Assembly (NCBI GenBank): GCA_024207135.1
Contig: CP042428.1
Location: forward strand, 1-64,000
Reading direction: 5' to 3'
From: Arthrobacter sp. C2
GTDB taxonomy: Bacteria > Actinomycetota > Actinomycetes > Actinomycetales > Micrococcaceae
DNA length: 64,000 nt
How positions within the stretch are numbered: position 1 is the first letter of the stretch; the number at the start of each line of letters is the position of its first letter. Position numbers and translations under genes: made by a program. Shown here one piece after another: positions 9,335 through 40,489 of this stretch. The notes under the pieces were generated by a model. That model saw only the letters and a program-made list of their open reading frames with translations. It made no database searches and was not told the DNA's origin.

Positions 9335-9380
9335 GTCCCTGGCTCGGGCCCGATGGCCCGGCATACGGCGTCGACAAAGG

Positions 9381-10297: not shown

Positions 10298-10445
10298 GCC
10301 AGGCCCCGCAGCCGCCCTCCGGCCGTGCGTGGGCGAGCTTCGCCACATGGCCGCCACCATCCACCGTCGGGGATTTGCCGCGGCACGTGGGCAGCAGGGC
10401 GGTGGGCCGCGAATCGGCGGATCGGCCCCTGACGTGGGTGCAAGA

Positions 10446-10451
10446 TAGCAT
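10446..10451 (+). promoter_or_regulatory. -10 element of the SseB-family gene, leaderless arrangement
   Basis: TAGCAT lies six bases before the ATG at 10458. This favours that ATG over a GTG at 10452, which would sit directly against the -10 element. Confidence 0.45.
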
Positions 10452-10457
10452 GTGCAT

Positions 10458-11372
10458 ATGAGCGCGAATTCTCCTTCTTCCCCTTCCGGCCAGGGTGCCG
10501 AACGACACCTGCCCGGGCACATCGCCGCGGCCCTGTTGCGTGCCGGCGGCGCCGTCGATTCGGCGGGGCAAAGCTGGGAAGGCCGGGACCTGACCGGCGC
10601 GGGCAACCCGCTGCACAACTTCGACAACGACAACGGCCTGGTCGACCCGAAACTCGAGGCCGCCTTGGCCGCCCTGGTCGCGGGAACCGGCAGCGAGCAG
10701 CAGGTCCACGCAGCCCTGGCCGAGGCCCGGATCTACATCGCCGTGGTGGCCCAGCTGGCCGAGGGAGGCCTGGGGGAGCACGGCTTCACCGAGGACAAGG
10801 AAGCGGACATGGCGCTGGTCACGCTCACCGCCCCCGACGGACGCAAGGCCCTGCCCGTTTTCAGCAGCGTCGACAACCTCCAGGCCTGGCATGCCGAGGC
10901 ACGCCCCGTTGCCGTCTACGCCCCGCGGGCCGCGCTCTCGGCGGTTTCCGAGGATGCCCAGATGCTGGTCCTGGATCCCGGCGCGGAGTTCACCTTCGTG
11001 CTGCGCCGCCCGGGCATGTGGGCGCTGGCCCAGCAACGGGCGTGGATCCCCAGCTACCTCAACGAAGACCTTGCCGCGGTCGTTTCCGAGCAGGCAACCA
11101 GCGAGGATTCGCTGGCCTCGATCCACATGGCACCGGGCCAGGGCGTGGGCACGCGCACGGCCTCGGGCAGCTCGGTTCCCGGCGGGGGACCGGGCCCGGA
11201 ATTGCGCCTTGAATTCACCTTCCACCCGGGCATCGACGAGGCCGGGGCACGCGAATGCGTCTCACGGATCCACGCGCGGCTGGCCGCAAACCAGGAATTC
11301 GCCGAAGGCGTCGACTCGCTCGAGGTGGCCCTCAAGGCGGCGCCGGCAACGGCGCCGGACCCCGGCGCATGA
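10458..11372 (+). CDS. SseB family protein
   Basis: The 304-residue protein has an SseB N-terminal-type domain in its middle (EDKEADMALVTLTAPDGRKALPVFSS to YAPRAALSAVSEDAQ) and a C-terminal segment resembling the SseB C-terminal region. No catalytic motif is visible and no signal peptide is present. In this family the function is poorly known. Its stop overlaps the ATG of the MFS gene (ATGA), so the two are probably co-translated. Confidence 0.75.
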   Translation: MSANSPSSPSGQGAERHLPGHIAAALLRAGGAVDSAGQSWEGRDLTGAGNPLHNFDNDNGLVDPKLEAALAALVAGTGSEQQVHAALAEARIYIAVVAQLAEGGLGEHGFTEDKEADMALVTLTAPDGRKALPVFSSVDNLQAWHAEARPVAVYAPRAALSAVSEDAQMLVLDPGAEFTFVLRRPGMWALAQQRAWIPSYLNEDLAAVVSEQATSEDSLASIHMAPGQGVGTRTASGSSVPGGGPGPELRLEFTFHPGIDEAGARECVSRIHARLAANQEFAEGVDSLEVALKAAPATAPDPGA

Positions 11373-12712
11373 AATTCGGTCGCTACGGCCAACTGCTGAA
11401 GCAACCCGGGGTCGGTGCCCTGCTGCTGATCGGCATGGTCGCCCGGCTTCCGCACGCCGCGGTGGGCATGCTCCTGCTGCTGCACCTGGTCAACGAACTG
11501 GACCAGGACTGGGGCTCGGCCGGACTGGTCGTCGCGCTGATGACCATCGGCATCGCGCTGGGTGCGCCCTGGCGCGGGCACGTCGTTGACATGTACGGGC
11601 TGCGCCGGGCCCTGATCCCCTCGGTCATCGCCGAGGTCGTGATCTGGAGCATCGTCCCGCAGGTTTCCTTCATGTGGGTGCTGCCGCTGGTGTTCATCGG
11701 CGGGCTCTTCTCGCTGCCGGTCTTCTCCGTGGTGCGCACCGCGCTGGGCGTGATGACCACCGGGGAAACCCGGCGCTCGGCATTCGCGCTGGACGCCATG
11801 GCCACCGAGCTGGTTTTCATCGTCGGCCCCGCGGGGGCCGGCATCGTGGCCACTTCGCTGGACACCACGGTCGGGATGATCGGCATCGGGATCGCTTCCT
11901 CTGCCTCCGGGCTCGCACTGATGCTGCTGAACCCGCCCACGCGCTCCGGCCAGCCCGGCGCCGTCGCGCTCAAGGCCAACCCGCACGAGGAACGCCTCGG
12001 GGCCGAGGCCTCGCTGATCGCCGCCGGGCCCGGCGGCCTGGCCGACGTCGAGGGGGAGCTGATCCTGGCCGGCGCGAAGTCGGCCAAGGCCCGGATTGCC
12101 GCGCGCGGACGTGGTTTCCGGCACAGGTTCGGCTGGGTCAGCGCCTCGGTCGTCGCGGTGTTCATCGCGGCCTCCGGAGCCGGACTGGTGCTCTCGGGCA
12201 CCGAGGTCGGCATCCTGTCGCTCTTGGACGAGAACGGCAGCGAGGGCCAGCTGGGCATCGTGTTCCTGTTCTGGTGCGGCGCCTCTCTGGTGGGCGGCTT
12301 GGTGTACGGCAGCCTGAACCGGCGGATCTCCCCGATCGTGCTGCTGCTGGCCATGGCCGTGCTGACCGTTCCCATGGCCTTTGCCACCGACACCTGGCCC
12401 CTGGCACTGCTGTCCATCGCCCCCGGCATGCTCTGCGCCCCGGTGCTGTCGGCGGCCTCGGAATGGCTGACCGACCTGGTGGCGGAAAAACGCCGCGGCG
12501 AGGCCATGGGCTGGTACGGCTCGGCGCTGACCGGCGGCACCGCGCTGGGTTCCCCGATCACCGGGGCGACGGTGGACGGCTTCGGCGCCAACGCCGGATT
12601 CATCATGGTCGGTTTCCTCGGGGCGGTCATCTGCGCCGTGGCACTCGTGGCCCAGCAGGTCCGGCGCGCTCGCGCCCGTGGCCGGGCAAGGGTGCTGGTG
12701 CCGGAGAGCTAG
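11369..12712 (+). CDS. major facilitator superfamily transporter
   Basis: The 447-residue protein has about twelve hydrophobic segments in two halves, split by a cytoplasmic loop near residues 190-255 rich in Lys/Arg/Glu. The N-terminal half carries the MFS motif-A-like stretch VVDMYGLRRA. The substrate cannot be assigned; the architecture fits a drug or metabolite exporter. It starts within the stop codon of the SseB-family gene and is followed by a terminator. Confidence 0.85.
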   Translation: MKFGRYGQLLKQPGVGALLLIGMVARLPHAAVGMLLLLHLVNELDQDWGSAGLVVALMTIGIALGAPWRGHVVDMYGLRRALIPSVIAEVVIWSIVPQVSFMWVLPLVFIGGLFSLPVFSVVRTALGVMTTGETRRSAFALDAMATELVFIVGPAGAGIVATSLDTTVGMIGIGIASSASGLALMLLNPPTRSGQPGAVALKANPHEERLGAEASLIAAGPGGLADVEGELILAGAKSAKARIAARGRGFRHRFGWVSASVVAVFIAASGAGLVLSGTEVGILSLLDENGSEGQLGIVFLFWCGASLVGGLVYGSLNRRISPIVLLLAMAVLTVPMAFATDTWPLALLSIAPGMLCAPVLSAASEWLTDLVAEKRRGEAMGWYGSALTGGTALGSPITGATVDGFGANAGFIMVGFLGAVICAVALVAQQVRRARARGRARVLVPES

Positions 12713-12879: not shown

Positions 12880-13245
12880 TTAGTTCACCGGGCCGGTGAG
12901 CTTTTCGCCCGGGCCCTTGCCCGGCTCGTCGGGGAATGCGGAGGCCTCGCGGAAGGCCAGCTGCAGCGAACGCAGGCCGTCGCGCAACGGTCCGGCGTGC
13001 TGGGAACCGATTTCCGGGGCTGCGGAAGTGACCAGGCCGGCCAGTGCGGTGATGAGCTTGCGGGCCTCGTCGAGGTCCTTGAGCTCTTCGGCGTCGTGGC
13101 CCTCGGCCAGGCCGCATTTAACCGCGGCGGCGCTCATGAGGTGCACGGCGGCGGTGGTGATGATTTCAACGGCTGCCACCTCGGCAATGTCGCGAATCTC
13201 GTTGGTGGCGTTGTTGGAGTCCGGATTGGTTTCAGGAGTACTCAT
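12880..13245 (-). CDS. DUF1844 domain protein
   Basis: The 121-residue cytoplasmic protein contains the DUF1844 signature (VEIITTAAVHLMSAAAVKCG, then LKDLDEARKLITALAGL). Its role is unknown. Genes of this family commonly lie next to and divergent from infC in Actinobacteria, as here. The ATG at 13245 is preceded by GGAAAG. The longer reading upstream lacks this support. Confidence 0.85.
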   Translation of the reverse strand: MSTPETNPDSNNATNEIRDIAEVAAVEIITTAAVHLMSAAAVKCGLAEGHDAEELKDLDEARKLITALAGLVTSAAPEIGSQHAGPLRDGLRSLQLAFREASAFPDEPGKGPGEKLTGPVN

Positions 13246-13450
13246 ACTGCTAAGCTTTCCATAGACCGACTGAATCCGTGCATTTGGGTGCGTCCTCCAC
13301 TTCGGTGGATGCGACCGAAAGCGCCTGGGTTCAGTATGCAAGTGGAGGCCACTCCCACCCGCAGCAGCCGAATCAGGCGGCCGGGTAAGTTCGGTACCGA
13401 TTGATCCCGCGGGATTCGTCGGTTGGATGATTTTTCATCGATCGAATTCG

Positions 13451-13490
13451 AGGCCTTCGCCTGCACCTGCAGCCGAAGGCCTTTCCTTTT
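13451..13490 (+). terminator. infC: leader terminator / attenuator upstream of infC
   Basis: AGGCCTTCG (13451-13459) pairs perfectly with CGAAGGCCT (13474-13482), followed by TTCCTTTT. It has all the parts of an intrinsic terminator but lies about 40 bases before the infC start codon, inside the operon leader. It probably sets readthrough into infC-rpmI-rplT. No ORF ending here suggests another purpose; the upstream gene is on the other strand. Confidence 0.7.
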
Positions 13491-13520
13491 GTTGCGGTGG
13501 CCTGAAACTACGAACTACTC

Positions 13521-13534
13521 AGGAGCAACACATT
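13521..13534 (+). promoter_or_regulatory. infC: Shine-Dalgarno and AUU start codon of infC
   Basis: AGGAG at 13521-13525 is followed by six bases and ATT at 13532-13534, the first codon of the conserved IF3 N-terminus ([15 protein letters not shown]). The only upstream in-frame ATG is at 13427, before the leader terminator, so ATT is the best start. AUU starts on infC are known from E. coli, where IF3 discriminates against them and represses its own synthesis. Confidence 0.82.
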
Positions 13535-14560
13535 AGCGATCCACGCATTAATGATCGAATCCGCGTCCCAGAGGTGCGGCTTGTCGGGCCTGCCGGTGAA
13601 CAGGTTGGCATTGTCCGTATTGAGGATGCTCTTCGTCTTGCCATCGAGTCCGACCTTGATCTCGTGGAGGTGGCACCCACTGCCAAGCCTCCCGTGTGCA
13701 AGCTGATGGACTTCGGGAAGTACAAGTACGAGGCCGCCGTCAAGGCACGCGAAACGCGCAAGAACCAGACGAACACCGTGCTGAAGGAAGTCCGCTTCCG
13801 ACTGAAGATCGACACGCACGACTACGAAACCAAGGTCGGGCACGCACTGCGCTTCCTCGGCGCCGGTGACAAGGTCAAGGCCATGATCCAGTTCCGCGGC
13901 CGTGAACAGCAGCGTCCGGAAATGGGCATCCGCCTGTTGAACAAGTTTGCCGAGGCCGTTGCCGAAGTCGGCGCGGTCGAGTCGAGCCCCCGCATCGATG
14001 GCCGCAACATGGTCATGGTTGTTGGACCGCTGAAGAACAAGGCCGAAGCCAAGGCCGAAGCCCGTCGCCTGGAACAGCGTGACGCGGACAAGGCCAAGGC
14101 AGCGAACCCCAAGGCGAAGATGGACACCTCGGAGCCCCAGGGCGACATCGGCGGTTCGGTTGCCGATGTCATCGAGTCGGACATCATGGAAAAGCTTGCC
14201 AAGGTACGTGCGGAAGCAGCAGCCGAAGAGGCCGCCGCCAAGCTCGCACCCAAGGCCGCCCCGGTCAAGGCAGCCCCGGCAGTGGCCAAGGCCCCTGTCA
14301 AGGCGGCCCCGGTGCGCGATGCGTCCAGCCGTCCGGCAGCCAGCAAGGCTCCGGTTCGTCCGGCAGCCAGCAGGCCGACCACCGCACCGGCACCGGCCAC
14401 CGCTCCGGCACCGGCCGCCAAGCCGGTCGTTGCAGCCAAGCCGGTTGCAGCACCGAAGCCGATGGCCGTTCCCAAGCCAATGGCCATGGCTCCAAAGCCT
14501 GCGGGCAAGCCGGGTCCCAAGCCCGCAACCCGCGCCGCCAAGCCCGGGACGACCAAGTAA
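13532..14560 (+). CDS. infC: translation initiation factor IF-3 with long C-terminal extension
   Basis: IF3 keeps ribosomal subunits apart and checks the start codon. From the AUU start the protein is 342 residues. The N-terminal domain is about 1-75 ([20 protein letters not shown]), the C-terminal domain about 80-170 ([29 protein letters not shown]), and a Lys/Ala/Pro-rich tail with repeats such as KAAPVKAAP and AKPVAAPKP follows from about 180. Most bacterial IF3s end near 180 residues; Ala/Pro/Lys tails occur in related Actinobacteria. The tail is probably disordered and basic. Confidence 0.93.
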
Positions 14561-14683
14561 GGTCGTCCCGAGCAGGGCACGCTCGCAAGAGCAACACCAG
14601 AACCACGGATTCCCCCAAACGCGGGAGTTCGCAAGATCCCCGGCCCGACAGGTCCCCGGGAGCAAGTAAGGAGAACGGCGGAT

Positions 14684-14878
14684 ATGCCGAAGTTCAAGAC
14701 CCATAGTGGCGCCAAGAAGCGCTTCAAGCTCACCGGTAGCGGCAAGATCATGCGCCAGCAGGCCAACCGCCGTCACTACCTGGAGCACAAGTCCTCCCGC
14801 ATCACCCGTCGCCTGGCATCTGACCAGCTGGTCGCCAAGGCGGACGTCAAGACCATCAAGCGGATGCTCGGTATCTAA
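14684..14878 (+). CDS. rpmI: 50S ribosomal protein bL35
   Basis: This is the 64-residue ribosomal protein L35, a basic protein of the large subunit: [20 protein letters not shown] at the N-terminus and [11 protein letters not shown] in the middle are its conserved parts. It lies between infC and rplT, the usual order. AAGGAG stands upstream of the ATG. Confidence 0.97.
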
Positions 14879-14984
14879 CTCCCGTCCGTCTTGGGATTCC
14901 GATCCTGGATTCCCGACCACATAAAGATTTTTCGCCAGACCGCCACGATGCGGCTGGGCGAGACAGAAACAAAGGAGTACACAC

Positions 14985-15620
14985 GTGGCACGTGTGAAGC
15001 GGGCAGTAAACGCCCATAAGAAGCGTCGCGTTATTCTTGAGCGCGCCAAGGGCTACCGCGGTCAGCGTTCGCGCCTGTACCGCAAGGCCAAGGAGCAGCT
15101 GCTCCACTCGTTCGTCTACAGCTTCGGCCACCGCCGCAAGCGCAAGGGTGACTTCCGTCGCCTGTGGATCCAGCGCATCAACGCTGCATCCCGCGCCAAC
15201 GGCCTGACCTACAACCGCCTGATCCAGGGCCTGAAGGCCGCTGAGGTCGAGGTTGACCGCCGCATGCTCGCCGAGCTGGCCGTGTCGGATGCCAACGCAT
15301 TCGCCACCCTGGTTGCCGTTGCCAAGAACGCCCTCCCGGCCGATGTCAACGCCCCGAAGGTCGCCGCCGCAGCCGTTGCTGCTCCGGTTGCCAAGAAGGC
15401 CGCTGCCAAGAAGGCTGCCGCTCCGGCCGCCGAAGCTGCAGAGGCTCCGGCCGGCTTCGTCATCAAGGGCAACGCCCAGTCGAACAAGTACCACGTTCCG
15501 GGCTCGACCTGGTACGACCAGACCGTTGCCGAAGTTTGGTTCGAGACCATCGAATCCGCCAAGGCAGCCGGCTTCGAGCCAGCAGGCGGCGAATCCCGCC
15601 AGCAGATCAAGGACGCCTAG
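14985..15620 (+). CDS. rplT: 50S ribosomal protein bL20 with an extra C-terminal domain
   Basis: Residues 1 to about 118 are a normal L20 ([35 protein letters not shown]), which organises 23S rRNA folding during assembly. An Ala/Lys-rich linker at about 121-156 then leads to a separate domain at about 157-200 with [20 protein letters not shown], a further Tyr, VWF and AGFEPA. That pattern (YHxPGS...Y...VWF...AGF) resembles a small stand-alone domain of nucleases and surface proteins (the sunset-type domain, from memory). At 211 residues the protein is much longer than the usual ~120. GTG start after AAAGGAG. Confidence 0.93.
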
Positions 15621-15643
15621 TCCTTGAGCTTCTAAGCTCTTGT

Positions 15644-15681
15644 CCAAAGGGACGGAATCGCTAGCGATTCCGTCCCTTTGG
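15644..15681 (+). terminator. 17-bp perfect hairpin after rplT
   Basis: Bases 15644-15660 and 15665-15681 are perfect reverse complements around a CTAG loop (CCAAAGGGACGG... and its complement). It follows the rplT stop by about 23 bases. There is no T-run after it, but the stem is very stable. It ends the infC operon. Confidence 0.75.
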
Positions 15682-15692
15682 CGTATCCCCGG

Positions 15693-15698
15693 TAAAGT
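15693..15698 (+). promoter_or_regulatory. -10 element of trmH-family gene, leaderless arrangement
   Basis: TAAAGT lies seven bases before the ATG at 15706. No Shine-Dalgarno is present. Confidence 0.5.
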
Positions 15699-15705
15699 CG
15701 TTCTC

Positions 15706-16614
15706 ATGAATCTTGCCGGAGACAACGAACTGACCATGACCAACGTCCGTGCCGAAAAGGTTCGCGAGGTGGCCCGACTGGCCACCCGCACCGGACGCGC
15801 CCGCAGCGGAGAGTTCCTGGCCGAGGGCCCGCAGGCCGTCCGGGAGGCCCTGCGCCTGCATCTTGAGAACGCCGAACATGGCCGGGCCGAGGTGGTCCGC
15901 GCGGTCTACGCAACCGAGGACTGCCTGGACAAGCACCCCGAACTCGAGGTCATGTCTAACAAGGCCGAGCGCGTGCACACCCGCTTGGTCAACCAGGAAG
16001 TCCTCGCGGCGATGGCCGACACCGTGACCCCGCAGGGCATCGTGGCCGTGTGCGTCATCCCCGAAACCAGCCTGCAGGACGTGGCTGCCACCAAGCCGCG
16101 CCTGGTGGCGGTGCTGACCCGCGTGCAGGACCCGGGCAACGCCGGAACCATCATCCGTGCAGCCGACGCCGCGGGCGCCGATGCCGTGGTGCTCACCAGC
16201 GGCAGCGTGGACATATACAACCCCAAGGCCGTGCGCTCCACCGTCGGCTCCATCTTCCACCTGCCCATCATCACCAACGCCGATTTCGGTGCGACCATGG
16301 CCGCATTCAAGGGCCAGGGCTCCACCATCCTGGCCGCCGACGGCTACGGGGCGGCGGACCTGGATGCCCTCCAGGACGCCAGCGCCGCACGTCGGGGAGG
16401 CAGCACCGAACCTGCCCCGGAGGGCCAGCCGGTGCTGGAGGATCCCACCGTGTGGGTCTTCGGCAACGAGGGCCAGGGCCTGGACGAGACCGAGCTGGCC
16501 GGAGCGGACCACCGGGTGGCGGTGCCGCTGTACGGGATCGCCGAATCGCTGAACGTGGGAACGGCCGCCACCATGTGCCTGTACGCCTCCGCGCGCGCCC
16601 AGCGCCGCGGCTGA
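15706..16614 (+). CDS. SPOUT-family RNA 2'-O-methyltransferase (TrmH/SpoU)
   Basis: The enzyme should 2'-O-methylate ribose in rRNA or tRNA using SAM. The 302-residue product has an N-terminal substrate-binding domain (RSGEFLAEGPQAVREAL) and a C-terminal trefoil-knot domain with the three SpoU motifs: NAGTIIRAADAAGADAV, VFGNEGQGLDETEL and VPLYGIAESLNVGTAATM. Position after rplT is conserved in Actinobacteria. The exact RNA target is unknown. The ATG at 15706 follows TAAAGT by seven bases; an in-frame ATG at 15736 is an alternative. Confidence 0.88.
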   Translation: MNLAGDNELTMTNVRAEKVREVARLATRTGRARSGEFLAEGPQAVREALRLHLENAEHGRAEVVRAVYATEDCLDKHPELEVMSNKAERVHTRLVNQEVLAAMADTVTPQGIVAVCVIPETSLQDVAATKPRLVAVLTRVQDPGNAGTIIRAADAAGADAVVLTSGSVDIYNPKAVRSTVGSIFHLPIITNADFGATMAAFKGQGSTILAADGYGAADLDALQDASAARRGGSTEPAPEGQPVLEDPTVWVFGNEGQGLDETELAGADHRVAVPLYGIAESLNVGTAATMCLYASARAQRRG

Positions 16615-16766
16615 GCCCACCCCGCCACGGGCAAAGCCGTGGCATAGGATGGGGCACGAATGCCGAAACACCATGTCAAGGCCTCCTGCCTGCCGACGGC
16701 CGGAGCTGCCGGACGGAACCTCATGCGGGAACATGGAACATACGAACCATAGAGAGTAGGGACGCC

Positions 16767-17714
16767 ATGGCAGCATCGGGCGGATCCAAAGCGGTGGTTG
16801 CCGCACTGGCGGCCAACCTGACCATTGCGCTGTTCAAGTTTGTGGCGTGGGCCGTGACGGCCTCATCCTCAATGCTCGCCGAAGCCATCCACTCGGTGGC
16901 CGACTCGGGCAACCAGGTCCTCCTGCTCGTCGGCGGGAAGAAGGCCCGGAGGGAAGCGGACCAGGAACACCCCTTCGGCTACGGCCGGGAACGCTACGTC
17001 TACTCCTTCATCGTCTCCATCGTGCTGTTCAGTGTCGGCGGCCTGTTCGCCCTCTATGAGGCGTGGCAGAAATTCAAGGACCCCCACGGCATCGAAGGAA
17101 AGTGGTGGTGGGTGCCACTGGCGGTGCTGATCGGCGCGATCATTGCCGAGGGATTCTCATTCCGCACCGCGATCAAGGAATCCAACCTGGTGCGCGGCAA
17201 GCAGTCCTGGGCCAAGTTCGTGCGGACCGCCAAGGCGCCGGAACTGCCGGTGATCCTGCTCGAGGACTTCGGGGCGCTCATCGGCCTGGTCCTGGCGCTG
17301 TGCGGCGTCAGCCTCACCCTGCTGACCGGAAACGGCGTCTTCGACGCCGCGGGCACCGCCTGCATCGGCCTGCTCCTGGTCGCCATCGCCATCGTGCTGG
17401 CGGTGGAAACCAAGTCCTTGCTGCTGGGCGAATCGGCAACCGCCGAGCACGTGAAACTGATCGCCTCGGCCATCACCGCCGAGGGCGCGCGCCTGATCCA
17501 CCTCAAGACCCTGCACCTGGGGCCCGAGGAAATCCTGGTCGCGGCGAAGGTCTCCGTGCCCGCCAACGCCACCGGGGCACAGATTGCCGCCGCGATCGAC
17601 GGGGCCGAATCACGGATCCGCGCCGCGGTGGAGCACAAGTGCGTGATCTACATCGAGCCGGACATCCTGATCTCCACCGATACCGTGCCCGAGACGGCTG
17701 CGGGGAAGGGCTAG
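16767..17714 (+). CDS. cation diffusion facilitator family transporter
   Basis: CDF proteins export divalent metals (Zn, Mn, Fe, Co) in exchange for protons. The 315-residue product has about six membrane segments. The metal-site helix is SMLAEAIHSVADSGNQ, followed by HPFGYGRERYVYSF, both hallmarks of the family, and a second site LLEDFGALIGLVLA. A cytoplasmic C-terminal domain follows from about residue 220. Metal specificity cannot be read with confidence. It may share a transcript with the Nudix and peptidase genes five bases downstream. Confidence 0.88.
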   Translation: MAASGGSKAVVAALAANLTIALFKFVAWAVTASSSMLAEAIHSVADSGNQVLLLVGGKKARREADQEHPFGYGRERYVYSFIVSIVLFSVGGLFALYEAWQKFKDPHGIEGKWWWVPLAVLIGAIIAEGFSFRTAIKESNLVRGKQSWAKFVRTAKAPELPVILLEDFGALIGLVLALCGVSLTLLTGNGVFDAAGTACIGLLLVAIAIVLAVETKSLLLGESATAEHVKLIASAITAEGARLIHLKTLHLGPEEILVAAKVSVPANATGAQIAAAIDGAESRIRAAVEHKCVIYIEPDILISTDTVPETAAGKG

Positions 17715-31119: not shown

Positions 31120-31822
31120 GGGAACATCATACAAAGCCCGATGTCGCCGCGAGCTCCCGGACAGGTGGGAAATGTACCTTCTAAACATCCATTCGCGTGC
31201 TCGCCTCGCCATGTCGTGTTCACCGGCACCCGTTGCTGCGGAGTCCGGCAATGCATGGCCGCCACCCGGCTCGTGCGACGTGCTTTCAAGAGGGGAAGGT
31301 CGCCCTGGGCGGGGATCCAGTGTGCGAAGGTGCTTGACCAACGGTGGACGTCAACATCATTTTCACGTTGAGCTATTCAGCAAGGAAACTGGAAACGTGA
31401 GCCAACGGTGTAGTTGCGGGGAAAGCCAAAAGGACTTTGCTTTGGCGCCGCTGGCACTGGACAAAGACGGCCGCGGCGGCTGGTTCGTCGCCGGCGCCAG
31501 GTTTCCCGTAGTCTTTTTCATCCGCGAACTTCCGAAACAACTGGAGATGCGACCCTCGATCCGCCGCTACGTCCAAAGCCCGGGGCTGCCGATGGCCTTT
31601 CCACGGCGAGCCAGGATGATCCATGATGGATAGGTGCCGGATGCTCCGGATTCCACCAACAGGCAAGACATGACCGAGCTGCCCCGAAGCGCCCGGAATC
31701 CTCCGGTGCCGAAACCACCAACCTGGCAAGGGACAATGTCGGCATCAGCCAGCGGATGCGCGACATCGATCCTCGTTCCGGGTGCCGGGACACCGCCAAA
31801 CAACCCGCGGAAAGACCAACAC
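31120..31822. other. 703-bp stretch without a supported gene
   Basis: This gap lies between the VOC gene and the AlkC-like gene. Open frames on both strands are short or low in typical codon character. The best is a 78-codon frame on the plus strand from GTG 31397 to 31633 (starts SQRCSCGESQKDFALAPLAL), with a weak AAGGAAA upstream. I would not call it. It could hold gene remnants; I saw no inverted repeats typical of an IS element. Confidence 0.35.
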
Positions 31823-32950
31823 ATGCCATTTGCCGACCAATTGATCAACGAGTCGACTGCCCGGGACCTCATAGGGGCCGTGGGGACCGTGGTCCCGGAC
31901 GCGGGCCTGCCCGCGCTGCACCTTGCCGTGCCCTTGATCGAAACACTGGGTTTGCGCGAGCGGGCCGATACGCTGCGCGACGCCCTGCTCAGCGACCTGC
32001 AGGGGGACTACGCCGCGCTGGCCGGCACGATACGCGCGGCGAGCGAAGACGCGGCATTCCGCGGCTGGCTGATCTGGCCGGTCACCTCGGCCATCGCCGC
32101 CAAGGCCGTCACGGAAGACACACGAGAGGCCTTTGACGACGCGATGGCATTGCTGGCCGAACTCACCGGGCGGCTCAGCGCCGAATTCGCCATCCGCACC
32201 CTGCTGCGCCACAACCTGGACCGTGCGCTCGAGCTCGTCCAGGGCTGGACAGCCTCGGAGGACGTGGATGTGCGACGTCTCGCCTCGGAGGGGACCCGCC
32301 CCTATCTGCCTTGGTCAACGAGGGTTCCGGAGATCACCGCACGGACGGGAGCGACGATCCCCGTGCTCGATGCGCTCTATCGCGACGACGCGGAGTACGT
32401 GCGCCGGTCCGTGGCAAACCACCTCAACGACCTCAGCCGCGATGCCCCGGACCTGGTGGTTGAAACCGCGCGGCGCTGGCTGGCCGAGCCCGATGCGAAC
32501 ACGGCGCGCCTGGTGCGCCACGCCCTGCGGACACTGGTCAAGAAGGGGGATGTGCATGCCCTGGAACTGCTCGGTTTCGGGCCGGTGTCCATCGACATCG
32601 CGGGCCCGGTGCTCGGCAGCACAAGCATCGGGTTCGGCCACAGCATCGACTTCAGCGCGGTGCTGCACAACCGCGGCGACGAGCCCGCGCGCGTGGCGAT
32701 CGACTACACGGTCTACCACCGCAAGGCCAACGGCGGGCAGACAGGCAAGACCTTCAAGCTGGCCACCCGAACCCTCGAGCCGGACGAAAGATTCGAGGTC
32801 GGACGCGAACATTCCTTCCGGGCGATCACCACCAGGCGCTATCATCCGGGCATGCACGCGATCAGCCTGCAAGTCAACGGCGTGGAATCGGCACGGGCGG
32901 AGTTCGAGCTGCTGCCCGAGGCCAAGGTGCGGGCTGCGGAACGCCGGTGA
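31823..32950 (+). CDS. DNA alkylation repair protein, AlkC-like with C-terminal Ig-like domain
   Basis: AlkC/AlkD proteins excise N3- or N7-alkylated bases using a HEAT-like repeat solenoid. The 375-residue product starts MPFADQLINESTARDLIGAV, typical of AlkC, and has repeat helices with SEGTRPYLPWSTRVPEI, DDAEYVRRSVANHLNDLSRD and ARLVRHALRTLVKKGD. From about residue 255 comes a beta-rich segment (IDFSAVLHNRGDEPARVAID ... HAISLQVNGVESARAEF) that reads as an immunoglobulin-like domain, as in long AlkC proteins. An upstream in-frame extension exists but the ATG at 31823 matches the family start. Confidence 0.85.
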   Translation: MPFADQLINESTARDLIGAVGTVVPDAGLPALHLAVPLIETLGLRERADTLRDALLSDLQGDYAALAGTIRAASEDAAFRGWLIWPVTSAIAAKAVTEDTREAFDDAMALLAELTGRLSAEFAIRTLLRHNLDRALELVQGWTASEDVDVRRLASEGTRPYLPWSTRVPEITARTGATIPVLDALYRDDAEYVRRSVANHLNDLSRDAPDLVVETARRWLAEPDANTARLVRHALRTLVKKGDVHALELLGFGPVSIDIAGPVLGSTSIGFGHSIDFSAVLHNRGDEPARVAIDYTVYHRKANGGQTGKTFKLATRTLEPDERFEVGREHSFRAITTRRYHPGMHAISLQVNGVESARAEFELLPEAKVRAAERR

Positions 32951-33030: not shown

Positions 33031-33915
33031 CTAGAATTCCTCGCCGGCGGCGATGACGGCGGCGGCCGGACCGACGATGAGCGGATCGGGCGTCCCGACC
33101 AGCTCGTGGTCCTTGCCCTCGTAGTCGAACAGACTCAGCACGTGGCGCATCGCCCCGAGCCGTGCCCGCTTCTTGTCGTTGGACTTCACCACGGTCCACG
33201 GCGCCCACTCGGTGTCGGTGGACCGGAAGGTCTCTTCCTTGGCCTCGGTGTAGGAATCCCACTTGTCCAGCGATGCCAGGTCGGTGGGGGAGAGCTTCCA
33301 CTGCCGCACCGGGTCGATCTGCCGGATGGTGAAGCGGGTGAGCTGCTCGCTGCGGGTGACCGAGAACCAGAACTTCACCAGCGTGATCCCGTCGTCGACC
33401 AGCTGCTTTTCGAAGGCCGGGGCCTGGTGCATGAAGCGGTCGAACTCCTCGCGGGTGCAGAAGCGCATGACCCGCTCCACGCCCGAGCGGTTGTACCAGG
33501 AGCGGTCGAAGAGGACCATCTCGCCGGCGGCCGGCAGGTGGGAGATGTAGCGCTGGAAGAACCACTGGGTGGATTCGCGCTTGCTGGGCTTCTCCAGCGC
33601 CACGACGCGGGCGCCGCGGGGGTTCAGGTGCTCGGTGAAGCGCTTGATGGTCCCGCCCTTGCCGGCGGCGTCGCGGCCCTCGAAGAGCACCACGAGGCGG
33701 CGGCCGGTGGCCTTGATCCAGACCTGCAGCTTGAGCAGCTCGATCTGCAGCAGCCGCTTCTCCAGGTCGTACTGGGCGCGGTCCAAGCGCGTGGAATACG
33801 GGTAGCCCTCGCGCCAGGTGTCCACGACTTCCCCGGTGGCGGTCAACAGCACCGGATCGTCATCGTCGTCGTCGCGGATGGAGTAGCCGTGGGCGGCCAA
33901 ATCAAGCAATTGCAT
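33031..33915 (-). CDS. ppk2: polyphosphate kinase 2
   Basis: PPK2 transfers phosphate between polyphosphate and nucleotides. The single-domain 294-residue protein has Walker A GRDAAGKGG at residues 80-88, the lid/helix region FTEHLNPRGARVVALEKPSK and Walker B LFDRSWYNR at about 135-143. It has the look of ADP- or GDP-using class I enzymes, but the class cannot be settled by eye. It is downstream of, and on the same strand as, the M1 peptidase and synthetase genes, with a 127-base gap, so co-transcription is possible but not required. Confidence 0.9.
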   Translation of the reverse strand: MQLLDLAAHGYSIRDDDDDDPVLLTATGEVVDTWREGYPYSTRLDRAQYDLEKRLLQIELLKLQVWIKATGRRLVVLFEGRDAAGKGGTIKRFTEHLNPRGARVVALEKPSKRESTQWFFQRYISHLPAAGEMVLFDRSWYNRSGVERVMRFCTREEFDRFMHQAPAFEKQLVDDGITLVKFWFSVTRSEQLTRFTIRQIDPVRQWKLSPTDLASLDKWDSYTEAKEETFRSTDTEWAPWTVVKSNDKKRARLGAMRHVLSLFDYEGKDHELVGTPDPLIVGPAAAVIAAGEEF

Positions 33916-34042: not shown

Positions 34043-35437
34043 TCAGCTTTCGGCCGGGGCCGGCAACACCGGCAGTGCCTTCTCGAATAGCCAGGGCCCC
34101 AGGAAATCCGCGGCGGATGCCGCGGTGGGCAGGTGCGCGTCGACGTGGTCGCGGAACAGGGCGTAGGTGACGGTGCCGTGGCGCCAGATCCCGGTCCAGG
34201 AGCGCAGCATGGCGAAGAACGCGCGGTCCCCGGCCGCCAGGCGCAGGGCGTGCAATGTCAGTGCTCCGCGCTTGTAGACCCGGTCATCGAACATGTCTTG
34301 GGGCCCGGGGTCCCCGATGGCGATGTCCTGATCCAGGGAGGCAAGCAATGCCCAGGCGTCCCTGGCGCGCGCATCGGCGCTCGGGCCGCCGGCGGCCTCG
34401 GACCAGATCCATTCGGCGTAGCAGGCAAATCCCTCGTGCAGCCAGATGTCCCGCCACGATCCGACGGTCAGTGAATTGCCGAACCACTGGTGGGAGAGTT
34501 CGTGGGCGATCAGCCGCTGCTGTTCCCAGCCCGGGGACAGGTGGTTGTCGCCCAGGATGGAGATGCCGTGGGCCTCGAGCGGGATTTCCAGGTCGTCCTC
34601 GGTGACCACGACGGTGTAGTCGGCGAAGGGGTAGGGGCCGAAGGCCTCGATGAAGGTTTCCATCATTCGCGGCTGGTCGGCCAGGGCCGCCGCGACCCGG
34701 TGGAGTGCGGCGGCGCTGGCAGCCACCAGTTGGGGCACCGGTGCCGGGGCGCCGGCATGCCGCCCGCCTTCTGCGACGGCGGTGCCAGCCAGCGAGCGCA
34801 ACTCGTAGCGGCCGATCTGCAGGGTCGCCAGGTAGGTGGCCATGGGCTCGTGGACCTCGTAGGTCCACCGTTCACGGCTGGCGCGCCGCTGGCGGTCCAC
34901 CAGCTGCCCGTTGCAGACCGGGCGGTACCCGGCGTCGGTGTTGACACTGATGCGGTAGGTCGCCTTTTGGCTGGGGTGGTCGTTGCAGGGGAACCAGGTG
35001 GGGGCACCGTTCGGCTGGCCCGCCACCAGCACCCCGTCGGTGAGTTCCTCCCAGCCGACCTCGCCCCAGGTTCCCTGGCGCACGTTCGGGACCCCGCCGT
35101 AGCGGATCTCCATGGTGAATTCCTCGCCGGCGGACACCGGGGAGGGCAGGTGCAGTTCCAGTCTGCCGGCCTTCTGCGTGAACCTCGGGACCTTTGCCCC
35201 GTTGAGCGCGATGCGCGAGGCGCGCAGCCCGGAGAGGTCGAGGGAGAGCCGTTCGAGCGTCTCGGCGGCCACCGCGGTGATGGTGGCGCGTCCGTCGAGC
35301 CGGTTGCCGCCCAGCTTGCAGTCCAGGTCCAGGTCGTAGTGCTCCACGCGGTAGGCGGCGCTGCCGGAACGGGGGATGTAGGCATCCGGGATGAATGCGG
35401 CCGTGGCGGCCGTGGTGTTCAGGGACGAATGACTCAT
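34043..35437 (-). CDS. M1 family zinc aminopeptidase, coupled to Pls-like synthetase
   Basis: The 464-residue protein has an N-terminal beta-sandwich domain (YRVEHYDLDLDCKLGGNRLD) and a thermolysin-like catalytic domain with HELSHQWFGNS (His312, Glu313, His316) and the third ligand in WLHEGFACYAE (about Glu335). The usual GAMEN exopeptidase motif is replaced by LEAHG. At 464 residues it lacks the C-terminal HEAT domain of large M1 enzymes. No signal peptide is evident. Its ATG overlaps the synthetase stop by four bases. In Streptomyces albulus an M1-type enzyme degrades epsilon-poly-lysine, so hydrolysis of the synthetase product is a reasonable guess. Confidence 0.88.
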   Translation of the reverse strand: MSHSSLNTTAATAAFIPDAYIPRSGSAAYRVEHYDLDLDCKLGGNRLDGRATITAVAAETLERLSLDLSGLRASRIALNGAKVPRFTQKAGRLELHLPSPVSAGEEFTMEIRYGGVPNVRQGTWGEVGWEELTDGVLVAGQPNGAPTWFPCNDHPSQKATYRISVNTDAGYRPVCNGQLVDRQRRASRERWTYEVHEPMATYLATLQIGRYELRSLAGTAVAEGGRHAGAPAPVPQLVAASAAALHRVAAALADQPRMMETFIEAFGPYPFADYTVVVTEDDLEIPLEAHGISILGDNHLSPGWEQQRLIAHELSHQWFGNSLTVGSWRDIWLHEGFACYAEWIWSEAAGGPSADARARDAWALLASLDQDIAIGDPGPQDMFDDRVYKRGALTLHALRLAAGDRAFFAMLRSWTGIWRHGTVTYALFRDHVDAHLPTAASAADFLGPWLFEKALPVLPAPAES

Positions 35438-38400
35438 GCGTGCGGCTGGCTCCAGGGTTGGACGGGGTTGCCCATCCAGTGGCTCGACGGGGGAACTGTT
35501 TCTCCGCGCATCACCAGCGACGCCGGGCCCACGGTGGCACCCGCGGACAGCGATGCCGCCGGCAGGATGACCCCGTGCGGGCCCATCGTGGATCCCGCGG
35601 AGAGTTCCACCGTATCAATTGCCATGACCCGGTCATGGAAAAGGTGGGTCTGGACGACGGTGCCGCGGTTGACCGTCGAGGAGTCCCCGAGGGTCACCAG
35701 GTCTGCCTCGGGCAGCCAGTAGCTTTCGCACCAGACCCCGTGGCCGATCTTGGCACCGAGCGCGCGAAGCCACCAGACCAGGGCCGGGGAGCCGGCCGCC
35801 GAGTGGGCGAACCAGGGTGCGCAGACCATCTCGATGAACGTGTCGACGACCTCGTTGCGCCAGATGAAAGAGCTCCACAGGGCGTGTTCGCCCGGGCGGA
35901 TGGGACCCACCAGCAGCCACTTGGCCACCACTGCGGAGGTGGCCGCGACGGCGCCTGCAACAAGCATCACCGCGCCGCTGAGCAGCGCCGCGGCCAGGTA
36001 GCCGTATTCGGTGGCCAGGACATCAAGCAGTGCCAGCACCAGGGCTGCGACACCGACGGTGATGACGACCGGTACGAACCGGCACAGTTCCCACAGGGCG
36101 CGGGCAAACTTCAGGCGCAGCGGCGGTGCGTAGGTGAGCGAGTCATCGGATGCCACCGCCGTGCGGCGCAGGCGCACCGGGGGGCTGCCCAGCCAGGAGG
36201 TCCCGGCCTTCGCCTTGGCGGGAGTTGCCGAGAGCACCGCGACAAGCCCGTTGCGCGGCACTCGGCGCCCGGCCCCGGCGATGCCGGAGTTGCCCAGGAA
36301 GGCGCGCTTGCCGATCTTGGCCCGGCCCACCTTCATCCAGCCGCCGCCGAGCTCGTAGGTGGCGACCATGGTGTCGTCGGCCAGGAAGGCACCGGCGCCG
36401 ATGGTGGTCATCCTGGGGATCAGCAGCACCGTGGAGGCCTCGACGTTGCGCCCGACCTTGGCACCGAGCAGGCGCAGCCAGACGGGGGTGAAGAGCGAGG
36501 CATAGAGTGGGAAGAGCAGGTCGCGGGCCATGTCCAGCAGGCGTTCGGTGGCCCAGACCTGCCAGCCGATCCGGCTGTCGACCCGGTGCCAGCCCTCGCG
36601 CAGGCCGATGCCCAGCAGCCGGGTGGCGATGAGCACCAGCAGCATGTTCAGGCCGAACCAGGTCAGCGCCGCGATGGGCACGACGTAGCTGAGGGCCAGC
36701 AGGGATTCGTGCAGCGATTCCTGGCCGCGGAGCAGGTAGACGGCCACCGCGACCGCGCCGAGGATGGCCAGCAGGGGCAGGGCGCCGAGGGCCGTGGAAG
36801 CAATCGCGAACAGGGCGTCGCGGAGCCTGCGGGTGCGGATGGGGGCCTGCGGCCATTCGGGCTTGGCCTTGCCGCTGCGTTCGGCGGGCGAGCCGGAGTA
36901 GAAGGAGAAGGCCTTGGTGGTGCCGGCCAGGGCGGAGCCCGGGGCCAGGGACACGCCGTCGGACACGACGGAGCCGGGCATCAGCGTGCTGCGTGCCCCG
37001 ACGCTTGCCTCGGCACCGATCTCGATGGCGCCGACGATGAGGCGGTCCCCGTCGATCCAGTAGCCGGTGAGGTCGACCTCGGGCTCGATGTTGGCTCCCC
37101 GGCCGACGGTGAGCAATCCGGTGACCGGAGGTATCGAGTGCAATTGCACATCGTGTCCGATGTCGGCGCCCAGGGCGCGGGCGTAGCGCTGGATCCAGTG
37201 GGCGCTGCCCAACGAGACGGGGTCGACCAGGTCGGCGATCTGCTGGGCCATCCACAGGCGCAGGTGCACCTTGCCCGAGCGCGGGTAGTTTCCGGGCTTC
37301 AGGTTGCGCAGGAGCAGGCGTGCCGCGAGAACCGACAGCACCATGCGGCCCGGGGAGGAAACAAAGACCAGCCAGAGTGCGCCAAGAGCCCACCAGGAGA
37401 GCCGCGGTGCGTCGGAAAACACGCCCAGGGTGCCCAGGACATTGTTGCCGGCCGCCAGGTACACCAGCCAGCGCATGCCCACCAGGATGAACGTGGGGAT
37501 GCCCATCAGCGTCTGGAAGACCTGGGCGCGCCGGGTGGTGCGCTCGACGACGCGGGTCTCCGGTTCGACACCCGAGCTGGTGCCCAGGGCCTCGAGCAGG
37601 GAGCCGATGCGTGGATGCGAATAGATCTCACCCACCGTGACGGTGCGATAACGCACCCGCAGCGCGGAGACCAGTTGCGCTGCCGAAAGCGAACCGCCGC
37701 CGGACGCGAAGAAATCCGCATCAAGGCTCGAGACCTCGGTGCCCAACACCCGGGTCCACTGGGTGAGGACCCAGGTGGCGTCCTCGCCGAGCTCCGGCAG
37801 GACCCCGGCATCGGAGGTGGCCTTGGCGCCGGGCAGCGGCCAGGGCAGTGCATTGCGGTCGACCTTGCCGCTGGTTTTGGTCGGCAGGGTGTCCACGACC
37901 GCAAGCAGCGGTATCAATGCCGCAGGGAGCACCACGGCCAGCCGTTCGCGGGCCGCGGCGGTGTCAAAGGCCGGGTCCGCGGCCAGGTAACCGACAAGGA
38001 TCTGGTTTCCCGCGGCGGTGGTCTTCACCGCTGCCGCGGCACCGGAGACCTCGGGCAGGGACTGGAGCGCCGCATCGATCTCGCCGAGTTCGATCCGGCG
38101 TCCGCCGAGCTTGACCTGCTCGTCCATCCTGCCCAGGAAGACCAAGCCTTCGGGATCCGCCTGCACAAGGTCGCCGGAACGGTAGGCACGCTCCCAGCCG
38201 AGGGTCTCGAAGGGCGCGTATTTTTCGGCGTCCTTCTCGGGGTCCAGGTAGCGCCCGAGTCCGACGCCGCCGATGATCAGCTCACCGCTTTGGCCGGGGG
38301 CGACGGGCAGCCCGGAGGCGTCGACGACTGCAAGGTCCCAGCCCTCGAGCGGCAATCCGATGCGCACCGGGTCGGTGCCGTCCATCTGTGCGGCGCACGC

Positions 38401-39336
38401 CACGACCGTGGCCTCGGTGGGGCCGTAGGTGTTCCACAGTTCGCGCCCCTGCACGGCCAGGCGGGCAGCAAGTTCGGGTGGGCAGGCCTCGCCGCCGAAG
38501 ATCAGCAGGCGGACGTTTTCCAGGGCCTCCGGCGGCCAGAGGGCCGCGAGGGTGGGGACGGTGGAGACCACCGTGACCCCGCGGGTCACCAGCCAGGGTC
38601 CCAGGTCCATGCCGGAGCGCACCAGCGCGCGCGGGGCGGGCACGAGGCAGGAGGAGTGGCGCCAGGCCAGCCACATTTCCTCGCAGGAGGCGTCGAAGGC
38701 CACCGAAAGTCCGGCCAGGACGCGGTCCTCGGGGCCTAGGGGTTCGGCCTGCAGGAAGATCCGGGCCTCGGCGTCGACAAACGCGGCGGCCGAGCGCTGG
38801 GTGATGGCCACGCCCTTGGGGGTTCCGGTGGATCCGGAGGTGAAGATGATCCAGGCGTCATCCTCCAGTCCTGCCTCGCGGGCGGGTTCCGGGTTCGGGG
38901 TGGTGCGCATGGAGGTGATCTTGCCCTTGGCTCCCATGACCGCGGCGACCTTGGCCTCCGCGAAGACCAATTGGGCGCGTTCCTCGGGGTCGTCGGCGTC
39001 GACCGGGACGTATGCTGCGCCGATCTTCATGGTGGCCAGGATGCCGATGTAGAGATCGCGCGTGCCCGACGGGATGCGGATGCCGATCCTGTCCCCGGCG
39101 CCGAGGCCGGCGGCGCGTAGGCGGGTGGCGGTCTCCTCGATGGCCAGGAGCAGTTCCGCGTAGGTCAACGAGCGCTCGCCGTCATCCAGGGCCGGGGCCT
39201 CGGGGTGGGCGGCGGCGCTTGCCTCCAGGATGTCGATCAGGGTCCGGGGTTGCGGTGCCAGGTGGCTGCCGGGGTATTGCGGCAGGAAGGTGGCGGTGGC
39301 GGTTGCCAGGTCGGGAGTGCTGGGTGTCGTATCCAC
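35434..39336 (-). CDS. Pls/PosA-type membrane-bound single-module nonribosomal peptide synthetase
   Basis: The 1300-residue protein has an adenylation domain (about 30-500; A3 FTSGSTGTPKG, A5 NTYGPTEAT, A10 LPTKTSGKVDRN), a thiolation domain with the phosphopantetheine Ser near 549 (SGGGS), then six membrane segments alternating with three left-handed beta-helix/acyltransferase-like soluble domains (for example GRGANIEPEVDLTGYWIDGD). There is no condensation or thioesterase domain. This is the layout and length of epsilon-poly-L-lysine synthetase of Streptomyces albulus. Pocket residues aligned by eye to GrsA are D-A-E-S-I-G-T-V-V-K, close to a lysine code. GTG 39336 follows AAGAAAG; an in-frame GTG at 39423 is an alternative. 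Confidence 0.88.
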   Translation of the reverse strand: MDTTPSTPDLATATATFLPQYPGSHLAPQPRTLIDILEASAAAHPEAPALDDGERSLTYAELLLAIEETATRLRAAGLGAGDRIGIRIPSGTRDLYIGILATMKIGAAYVPVDADDPEERAQLVFAEAKVAAVMGAKGKITSMRTTPNPEPAREAGLEDDAWIIFTSGSTGTPKGVAITQRSAAAFVDAEARIFLQAEPLGPEDRVLAGLSVAFDASCEEMWLAWRHSSCLVPAPRALVRSGMDLGPWLVTRGVTVVSTVPTLAALWPPEALENVRLLIFGGEACPPELAARLAVQGRELWNTYGPTEATVVACAAQMDGTDPVRIGLPLEGWDLAVVDASGLPVAPGQSGELIIGGVGLGRYLDPEKDAEKYAPFETLGWERAYRSGDLVQADPEGLVFLGRMDEQVKLGGRRIELGEIDAALQSLPEVSGAAAAVKTTAAGNQILVGYLAADPAFDTAAARERLAVVLPAALIPLLAVVDTLPTKTSGKVDRNALPWPLPGAKATSDAGVLPELGEDATWVLTQWTRVLGTEVSSLDADFFASGGGSLSAAQLVSALRVRYRTVTVGEIYSHPRIGSLLEALGTSSGVEPETRVVERTTRRAQVFQTLMGIPTFILVGMRWLVYLAAGNNVLGTLGVFSDAPRLSWWALGALWLVFVSSPGRMVLSVLAARLLLRNLKPGNYPRSGKVHLRLWMAQQIADLVDPVSLGSAHWIQRYARALGADIGHDVQLHSIPPVTGLLTVGRGANIEPEVDLTGYWIDGDRLIVGAIEIGAEASVGARSTLMPGSVVSDGVSLAPGSALAGTTKAFSFYSGSPAERSGKAKPEWPQAPIRTRRLRDALFAIASTALGALPLLAILGAVAVAVYLLRGQESLHESLLALSYVVPIAALTWFGLNMLLVLIATRLLGIGLREGWHRVDSRIGWQVWATERLLDMARDLLFPLYASLFTPVWLRLLGAKVGRNVEASTVLLIPRMTTIGAGAFLADDTMVATYELGGGWMKVGRAKIGKRAFLGNSGIAGAGRRVPRNGLVAVLSATPAKAKAGTSWLGSPPVRLRRTAVASDDSLTYAPPLRLKFARALWELCRFVPVVITVGVAALVLALLDVLATEYGYLAAALLSGAVMLVAGAVAATSAVVAKWLLVGPIRPGEHALWSSFIWRNEVVDTFIEMVCAPWFAHSAAGSPALVWWLRALGAKIGHGVWCESYWLPEADLVTLGDSSTVNRGTVVQTHLFHDRVMAIDTVELSAGSTMGPHGVILPAASLSAGATVGPASLVMRGETVPPSSHWMGNPVQPWSQPHA

Positions 39337-39462
39337 TGTGGCTTTCTTGAAAAGTGGTGCCCGGGGTTCCCCCTGTGGGGAGACCCAAGGCGCTGGGGGC
39401 CCTGCCGGGATCCGCAGCGCCACCGGGGCGCCCGCCGCCGCTCGGCCGGCACGTACGCGGCA

Positions 39463-39494
39463 AACCTATGCAGGCAAGGTTAACGCCAGGCATA
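39463..39494. promoter_or_regulatory. candidate control region between synthetase and PPTase genes
   Basis: TATGC (39467-39471) and GCATA (39490-39494) form a short inverted repeat enclosing AAGGTTAACG, and a TAGGTT hexamer reads toward the synthetase on the minus strand (39463-39468). This is the only AT-richer spot between the two divergent genes. Part of it resembles one half of a DtxR/IdeR iron box, but the other half is missing. Confidence 0.3.
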
Positions 39495-39656
39495 CACAAG
39501 GTGGACGGCATGGGGATTTCGGCGCAATGTGCCGCGGATCATGTGCCGGGCCACACCGCCGCGAGTGCAGGACACGATTCCGGAATCCGCTGCCCGGTGC
39601 GACATACTCGAGGCAGCCGAAACCGGCCACCAAGCCAGCACATCAGGGGGACCCGA

Positions 39657-40406
39657 ATGGACTTGCAAGCAGCACCCGGAGAAGGCGCCGGCCACGCTGC
39701 CCCGTGGTGGGCCGTTGCCCCGTTGTCCGCCGCCGCGGCGCACCCCGGGGTCCGGCTGCTGGCGGCCGAGCTCGACCGCGCCCGCGGCTACGCAGCCGGG
39801 CGCCCGCGCGAGGACTTCGTGGCCGGGCGGATCCTGGCCCGGGTGCTGGCGGCCGAACTGCTGGGCCTCGCCGGGGTGCAGGGCCGCGAGGTCCTGCCCG
39901 GCGAGCTCGAGATCGCCCAGTGGTGTCCGCAATGCGCCTCCACCGCGCACGGGACCCCGCGGCTGCGCCTGCCTGATCGCGGGGACGGCTATGCGCTGTC
40001 CTACGCCCGCACCGCGGGTTGGCTGCTGCTGGGCCTGGCCCCCGGGCGCGGGCGGCTGGGCGTGGACCTGGCCGATTCGGCCGATGCCGCGTTCGGCCCG
40101 GGCGACGGGAACCTGCTCGAGGACTACGCCTACGCACCGGGCGAGCGCGCCCGGCTTCGGGCGCTGCCGGGACCGGAACGGCAGCGCTTGCGGGCCCGGT
40201 GGTGGGCGCTGAAGGAAGCGGTGGCCAAGGCCTCCGGGGAGGGCCTGGCGGGGGAGTGCGGGATCCCGGTGGTTGCCGGGGAGCACCGGCACCCGCTGCT
40301 GCGCGCCGCCGGCACGCGCGTGCTCGAGCCGTTGCCGGGAACCCCCGACTCCCTGGGGCGCGCGCTTCCCGGCACCCTGGTGGGAAGCATCGTCTGGGCG
40401 CCCTGA
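39657..40406 (+). CDS. 4'-phosphopantetheinyl transferase, Sfp type
   Basis: PPTases attach the phosphopantetheine arm to carrier domains. The 249-residue protein has the metal-binding motif GVDLAD (Asp137) and WALKEAVAKASGEGL at about 183-197 with Lys186 and Glu187, the two Sfp hallmarks, in a pseudo-dimeric two-domain length. AGGGGG precedes the ATG by six bases. It is divergent from the Pls-like synthetase and is the obvious candidate to activate its thiolation domain. Confidence 0.87.
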   Translation: MDLQAAPGEGAGHAAPWWAVAPLSAAAAHPGVRLLAAELDRARGYAAGRPREDFVAGRILARVLAAELLGLAGVQGREVLPGELEIAQWCPQCASTAHGTPRLRLPDRGDGYALSYARTAGWLLLGLAPGRGRLGVDLADSADAAFGPGDGNLLEDYAYAPGERARLRALPGPERQRLRARWWALKEAVAKASGEGLAGECGIPVVAGEHRHPLLRAAGTRVLEPLPGTPDSLGRALPGTLVGSIVWAP

Positions 40407-40428
40407 GCATTGCGCCGGGCACAAAGAA

Positions 40429-40465
40429 CGTGGGTGCGCCCGCCGCAACGGCAAACGCACCCACG
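40429..40465. terminator. hairpin between PPTase and ABC permease genes
   Basis: CGTGGGTGCG (40429-40438) and CGCACCCACG (40456-40465) form a 10-bp stem between two convergent genes. No strong T-run follows on either side. Confidence 0.6.
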
Positions 40466-40489
40466 CATGTTATCGGCTTGCGGAGGGCC

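Follow-up and report, generated by a model that had tools for sequence, protein, structure and literature searches.

The window, by which we mean the whole 64 000-base stretch of DNA analysed (bases 1-64000 of a single 4.56 Mb contig), carries on its minus strand, in this order, pls (35434-39423), an M1 peptidase gene (34043-35437) and a PPK2 gene (33031-33915), with an Sfp-type PPTase gene on the plus strand (39657-40406) facing pls. The host genus of the locus is Paeniglutamicibacter, and among the matches listed the closest named relative of the synthetase is that of P. terrestris (84%). The features are as follows.

35434-39423, minus strand: pls, Pls/PosA-family synthetase (TIGR02353, 684.1 bits; 7wew, E 4.2e-198)
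37825-39255, minus strand: adenylation (A) domain, residues 57-533, pocket DAESIGTVVK (7wew alignment)
37585-37773, minus strand: thiolation (T, carrier) domain, GGGS at residue 575 (PF00550)
35461-37521, minus strand: membrane domain with three beta-helix domains and three membrane hairpins (TIGR02353, model, Foldseek, hydropathy)
34043-35437, minus strand: M1 metallopeptidase, PldII-like (PF01433/PF17900; nearest solved chain 6a8z)
33031-33915, minus strand: PPK2 polyphosphate kinase, pls-linked type (PF03976, 325.8 bits; 5ll0; linkage; Walker motifs)
39657-40406, plus strand: Sfp-type PPTase, divergent from pls (PF01648, 34.7 bits)
39424-39656, no strand: pls-PPTase intergenic region, presumed from the gene layout to hold divergent promoters

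A sigma-70 consensus scan of the intergenic region gave no site. The M1 and ppk2 genes are separated by 127 bases, and a scan for terminators between them found none; a 131-base stretch spanning this interval folds no better than shuffled sequences (z -0.33), a result compatible with co-transcription or with its absence. At 40428-40466 on the minus strand, an 18-pair terminator-like hairpin follows ABC-transporter permease genes and faces the end of the PPTase gene. The gene at 31634-32950 is a conserved neighbour of the cluster, with a DNA_alkylation match that is below threshold (19.6 bits, cut-off 21).

The synthetase and its adenylation pocket

Counted from the GTG at 39423, the pls ORF comprises 1329 codons; an alternative GTG at 39336, near which many relatives begin to align, gives the 1300 residues of the original prediction and may be the start instead. 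A Pfam scan places AMP-binding and PP-binding domains at residues 66-389 and 551-613 and finds no condensation or thioesterase domain; following these, residues 635-1321 match TIGR02353, the Pls/PosA family model, well above its curated cut-off (684.1 bits against 423.1), which is the arrangement that marks a member of this family. By hydropathy the C-terminal half contains hydrophobic segments in three pairs, an extra segment inside the adenylation region (492-515) being left out of the count. The best of five AlphaFold2 models of residues 620-1329 (mean pLDDT 83.7, pTM 0.87; pLDDT over the five models from 83.7 to 64.2) predicts three repeats, each a membrane hairpin followed by a beta-helix. 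In a Foldseek search hexapeptide acetyltransferases recur among its matches, though weakly (best E 4.6e-5) and with a small portion of the model aligned. Pfam, TIGR02353, hydropathy and the model therefore agree on the anticipated layout of A and T domains, six membrane segments and three beta-helix domains without C or TE domains. The best solved-structure match of the protein is to 7wew, with an E-value (4.2e-198) that sets chance aside, and at least 592 related stretches were found in one scan of species genomes.

The domain in 7wew is that of an epsilon-poly-L-lysine synthase, which we take to be from Streptomyces albulus, and the A domain of the window Pls is 66% identical to it (315 of 474 aligned residues). 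Read through this alignment, with GrsA position numbers as anchors, the ten pocket residues are D-A-E-S-I-G-T-V-V-K in both proteins; the spacing in the window Pls follows the GrsA numbering as far as position 301 and has one extra residue over 322 to 331. The code had thus been called correctly, and the pocket of this Pls-type synthetase is indeed lysine-like, being the same as in a solved epsilon-polylysine synthase. The two departures from a lysine code reported with it do not survive the comparison with 7wew, where ten of ten residues agree; they arose because another lysine code (DAESIGSVCK), not the right yardstick here, had been used. Across 95 loci, counted as rows that include duplicates because named loci and genomes overlap (e.g. 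L054/G014), the code is DAESIGTVVK in 90, DAESIGTVIK in two and DFECLSVVTK in three. The window Pls and 7wew fall together in a 25-row A-domain tree built by a quick method, with the DFECLSVVTK proteins across a fully supported branch; this tree excludes two very long rows, the inclusion of which had left an earlier tree poorly resolved, it contains no characterised Dap, Dab or ornithine enzymes, and 7wew fills 36% of its columns.

The pocket argues strongly for lysine as the probable substrate of Pls, and its identity to 7wew at ten of ten positions removes any other amino acid from consideration as the leading view. The Pls/PosA family also includes ornithine, Dap, Dab and beta-lysine enzymes, and several of its members have unknown pockets (PMC10522769); Pls might instead polymerise another diamino acid (ornithine, beta-lysine, diaminobutyrate) or a mixture; we consider this very improbable, given not only the ten shared residues but also the Ala at the second pocket position, as in lysine enzymes, where Met is reported for ornithine and Phe for Dap/Dab (PMC10522769). 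Against beta-lysine specifically, the neighbours examined include no lysine-2,3-aminomutase gene, such a neighbour having been reported for the beta-lysine enzyme. The gene pair is likely to encode an epsilon-polylysine synthetase with a PldII-like peptidase.

Other Pls loci, mostly in Paeniglutamicibacter, show several further arrangements. Two divergent pls genes lie side by side in L215 (G001:C67:18001-38000, at 8130-11930 and 13544-17458); the second type is 48-49% identical to the window Pls, has the code DAESIGTVIK, and may have been acquired by transfer, since its companions in the tree are 7wew and a protein from a Streptomyces plasmid. Only this second type is present in L222 (G011:C33, 7248-17053), where M1 lies on the other strand and a PPTase gene follows further along. 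The Pls/PosA proteins of L040/L218 (G004), L041/L229 (G013) and L042 (G012) are about 28% identical and have the pocket DFECLSVVTK, Phe at its second position being the residue reported for Dap/Dab polymer synthetases (PMC10522769). L227 and L228 (G004:C1:2634001-2649000 and 742001-757000) hold TIGR02353 proteins, of 1134 and 1044 codons, that align to the window Pls only from about residue 559, the A domain being missing or separate; one of them has as its neighbour an NRPS-like frame of 1391 codons, whose code is odd. In L217 (G004) two PPTase genes (5080-5814 and 13010-13666) flank pls, with no linked PPK2. Five Mycobacterium plasmid records (avium, intracellulare; H8-H12) carry a Pls/PosA gene 56.8% identical to the window Pls.

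Peptidase and PPTase genes beside pls

The M1 start codon and the pls stop codon share the sequence ATGA at 35434-35437, the four-base overlap that had been predicted, and the HEXXH-18-E motif is intact, so that the M1 gene has both the catalytic residues and the coupling to pls of a PldII-type enzyme. Residues H312, H316, E335, E313 and E288 are invariant in 81 of 81 sequences; presumably the first three are zinc ligands, E313 is catalytic and E288 is the GxMEN equivalent. The partnership of the peptidase with the synthetase is borne out by a same-strand M1 gene downstream of pls in all 80 named relatives, the largest separation being about 2.2 kb (L083). At 47 of these 80 loci a possible M1 start codon and the pls stop overlap; the accompanying gap list holds three values above 2000 bases. 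Pls exceeds the cut-off in 11 of 15 Paeniglutamicibacter genomes, and exactly these 11 also have an M1 of at least 66% identity, which the remaining four lack. Pls-adjacent M1 proteins encoded on Kitasatospora and Streptomyces plasmids are 48 and 43% identical, respectively, to the window M1, and the Streptomyces plasmid pair also has a four-base overlap. Homology strongly suggests that the window M1 would cut the polymer: in S. albulus, translational coupling is reported to link pldII to pls, and its product to be located outside the membrane and to degrade the polymer (PMC9223678), whereas the N-terminus of the window M1 has no obvious signal peptide by eye.

The PPTase ORF runs from the ATG at 39657 and encodes 250 residues, within the range of about 230-250 for Sfp-type enzymes as distinct from AcpS, with a PF01648 match above the cut-off (34.7 bits against 25); the divergent Sfp-type PPTase of the original prediction is therefore confirmed. 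Its own genome has two PPTase matches, this one and a 122-codon AcpS-like frame at 1616893, and two carrier-domain matches, Pls and a small ACP-like frame, which leaves Pls as the sole NRPS-type client found by the models. An intact second PPTase is present in the same 11 Pls-positive Paeniglutamicibacter genomes, each time a few kb at most from a Pls gene. Across 245 Micrococcaceae genomes a second PPTase occurs in 130 of the 140 with Pls and in 32 of the 105 without, the latter figure weakening the case for an exclusive relationship; in at least four of the 10 Pls-positive exceptions (G034, G040, G061 and G103) tblastn places a PPTase beside pls. Our own PPTase HMM recovered the gene at no fewer than 28 of the 80 named loci, a lower bound because it missed copies that PF01648 places beside PPK2 in at least six genomes.

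At a site in G006 (L226, 9075-9523) homologues of genes flanking the window cluster enclose a PPTase copy broken over frames but no pls, M1 or PPK2; to judge from its sequence, this is a natural loss of the whole pls-M1-PPK2-PPTase set. The homologue of the window gene at 31634-32950 borders this cluster-less site. A general housekeeping role for the PPTase was considered, and is weakened by the two PPTase and two carrier matches of its own genome, by the linkage in 11 of 11 Pls-positive genomes of the genus and by the decay in G006. The association of PPTase with Pls holds in both the genus and the family tests, and homology argues strongly that the enzyme would activate Pls.

The pls-linked PPK2

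The product of the PPK2 gene, to which the original prediction did not refer, gives a PF03976 match of 325.8 bits and has the Walker motifs GRDAAGK and DRSWY, as a PPK2 should; its nearest solved chains are 5ll0 and 4yeg (E about 1e-108), which we take to be class I PPK2 enzymes. PPK2 proteins at least 89% identical to it are found in nine of the 15 Paeniglutamicibacter genomes, all of them Pls-positive and always directly after M1, and all 15 have another PPK2 with about 30% identity. At a threshold of at least 72% identity, a line drawn after viewing the list, the linked type is present in at least 39 of the 245 Micrococcaceae genomes. Among the matches listed these comprise 39 of 140 genomes with Pls and none of 105 without (Fisher p 2.6e-11, ignoring relatedness), and in 38 of the 39 no more than about 10 kb separates the gene from pls and M1 (nine Paeniglutamicibacter genomes, 28 of the 29 others fetched, and G151). 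The lone exception is G201, in which pls and PPK2 are on different contigs. In G151 (L272, 9381-16353) each of pls, M1 and PPK2 is broken into two frames, through either joint decay or sequencing errors.

Of the next 12 PPK2 proteins by E-value (66-69% identity) we examined 11, all but that of G228, and none is linked to pls. These 11 are separated with full support from the other 44 rows (43 linked, including duplicates, plus G201) in a 55-row PPK2 tree; a strict count of label changes is two because of G201. In 42 of the 43 linked rows, duplicates included, acidic residues are bunched close to the N-terminus (at least five in a run of eight), as against two of the 11 unlinked ones.

We suggest that the linked PPK2 would regenerate ATP locally for the polymerase. 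PPK2 enzymes can run both ways, and we propose the direction and the purpose of the reaction with moderate confidence. Added polyphosphate kinases lend this step some backing: in S. albulus flasks, introducing C. glutamicum PPK2B and a polyP:AMP phosphotransferase gave increases of 71.56% in intracellular ATP and 21.24% in epsilon-polylysine (PMC10012588), and a polyphosphate kinase alone gave a gain of 14.51% (PMC10157215). It is weakened by the report that ppk2B, pap and pls co-expressed brought no significant gain over ppk2B-pap or pls alone (PMC11274744), pls overexpression thus adding nothing significant to ppk2B-pap.

A passenger PPK2, kept beside pls by inherited gene order or by shared regulation (e.g. 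phosphate stress) and with no part in polymer synthesis, is a serious possibility that falls somewhat short of an even chance. The linked type is absent from 101 of the 140 Pls-positive family genomes among the matches listed, so that Pls in general does not need it; G004 and G011 carry Pls without it, it lies on another contig from pls in G201, and the genomes are related, so that the counts are not independent events. A PPK2 match falls within the fetched stretch at only six of the 80 named loci, all in Micrococcaceae, with none at the other 74, which limits the link to part of one family. On the other hand, the position of the gene varies (directly after M1, after a convergent PPTase gene, or upstream of pls) while its membership of the cluster persists, which favours shared function over a frozen order. 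The absence of the linked type, among the matches listed, from all 105 Pls-negative genomes and the lack of linkage in the 11 near neighbours examined also speak against a passenger, as does the distribution within the nine genera that have a linked PPK2, where among the matches listed it is present in 38 Pls-positive genomes and absent from five, and is present in none and absent from 22 of those without Pls.

It is also conceivable, albeit unlikely, that the task of PPK2 is to form or break down polyphosphate, which would serve the polycation as counter-ion or storage partner, and not to feed ATP to Pls. Polyphosphate and polylysine are oppositely charged, and the acidic run is concentrated in the linked rows; that run may be a plain lineage character, however, and two S. 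albulus engineering papers support the ATP direction (PMC10012588, PMC10157215). Returning to ATP regeneration, a bolder version, which we offer tentatively and would not yet call probable, is that the PPK2 subclade evolved as a dedicated energy partner of Pls, the acidic run holding the enzyme near the polycation or the synthetase. If so, polyphosphate would fuel a secondary-metabolite polymer, and evolution would have arrived at the coupling to ATP regeneration before engineers introduced it into S. albulus.

Proposed pathway and known systems

Taken together, the locus is very probably an epsilon-poly-L-lysine set in which the PPTase primes, Pls polymerises, M1 cuts and PPK2 may regenerate ATP. 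The PPTase would attach a phosphopantetheine arm to the T domain of Pls, and the A domain would activate L-lysine with ATP and load it onto this arm; the three membrane-tethered beta-helix domains may then link the lysines by isopeptide bonds, with the polymer leaving the cell. The translationally coupled M1 would cut the polymer for self-protection or recycling, and the linked PPK2 may regenerate, from polyphosphate, the ATP spent on lysine activation. Beneath this scheme lie the observed architecture, the pocket identity, the four-gene association, and the one site with three genes missing and the fourth broken.

The original prediction held that such a cassette would be notable outside Streptomyces, but Jiang et al. 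(2021) had already reported pls homologues in Arthrobacter, Glutamicibacter and other coryneforms, proved the Corynebacterium variabile Pls by heterologous expression, and described, in C. variabile and Streptomyces, an operon that includes a peptidase gene (PMC8117764); the work is cited in a review (PMC8506220). The pairing of pls with a peptidase gene in coryneforms is therefore published, and the apparently new part is the presence of PPK2 and PPTase helper genes beside pls, of which we saw no report among the mostly open-access papers listed in our searches. Epsilon-polylysine, an antimicrobial polymer, is sold as a food preservative, and ATP limits its yield (PMC10012588); the natural pls-M1-PPTase-ppk2 set identifies helper genes that evolution keeps with the synthetase, and so offers matched parts for production strains. 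In cultures of C. variabile itself the polymer is undetectable (PMC8117764), and the locus described here makes it testable why those genes are silent in culture and whether the polyphosphate state is part of the trigger.

The closest known system, Pls and PldII of S. albulus, shares with the window the protein family, the domain layout, the ten pocket residues and the coupled downstream peptidase gene, but the A domains are 66% identical and the window adds PPTase and PPK2 genes beside the pair. Two Streptomycetaceae plasmid pls loci have no PPTase or PPK2 annotated within about 6 kb, in records whose annotation is incomplete. The coryneform homologues are the same kind of gene, with Arthrobacter and Glutamicibacter among the hosts and a peptidase operon in C. 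variabile, but the text consulted makes no mention of PPTase or PPK2 partners (PMC8117764). PosA, the delta-poly-L-ornithine synthetase of Acinetobacter baumannii, has the same family and layout but differs in its pocket (DMEHNGTVSK) and is described as a single-gene operon without obvious neighbours (PMC10522769). Engineered S. albulus provides the nearest parallel to the PPK2 linkage, since there too a polyphosphate kinase is coupled to epsilon-polylysine synthesis, with both ATP and polymer increased; that coupling is man-made, using C. glutamicum and Acinetobacter johnsonii genes (PMC10012588), whereas the pairing in the window is natural and its function putative.
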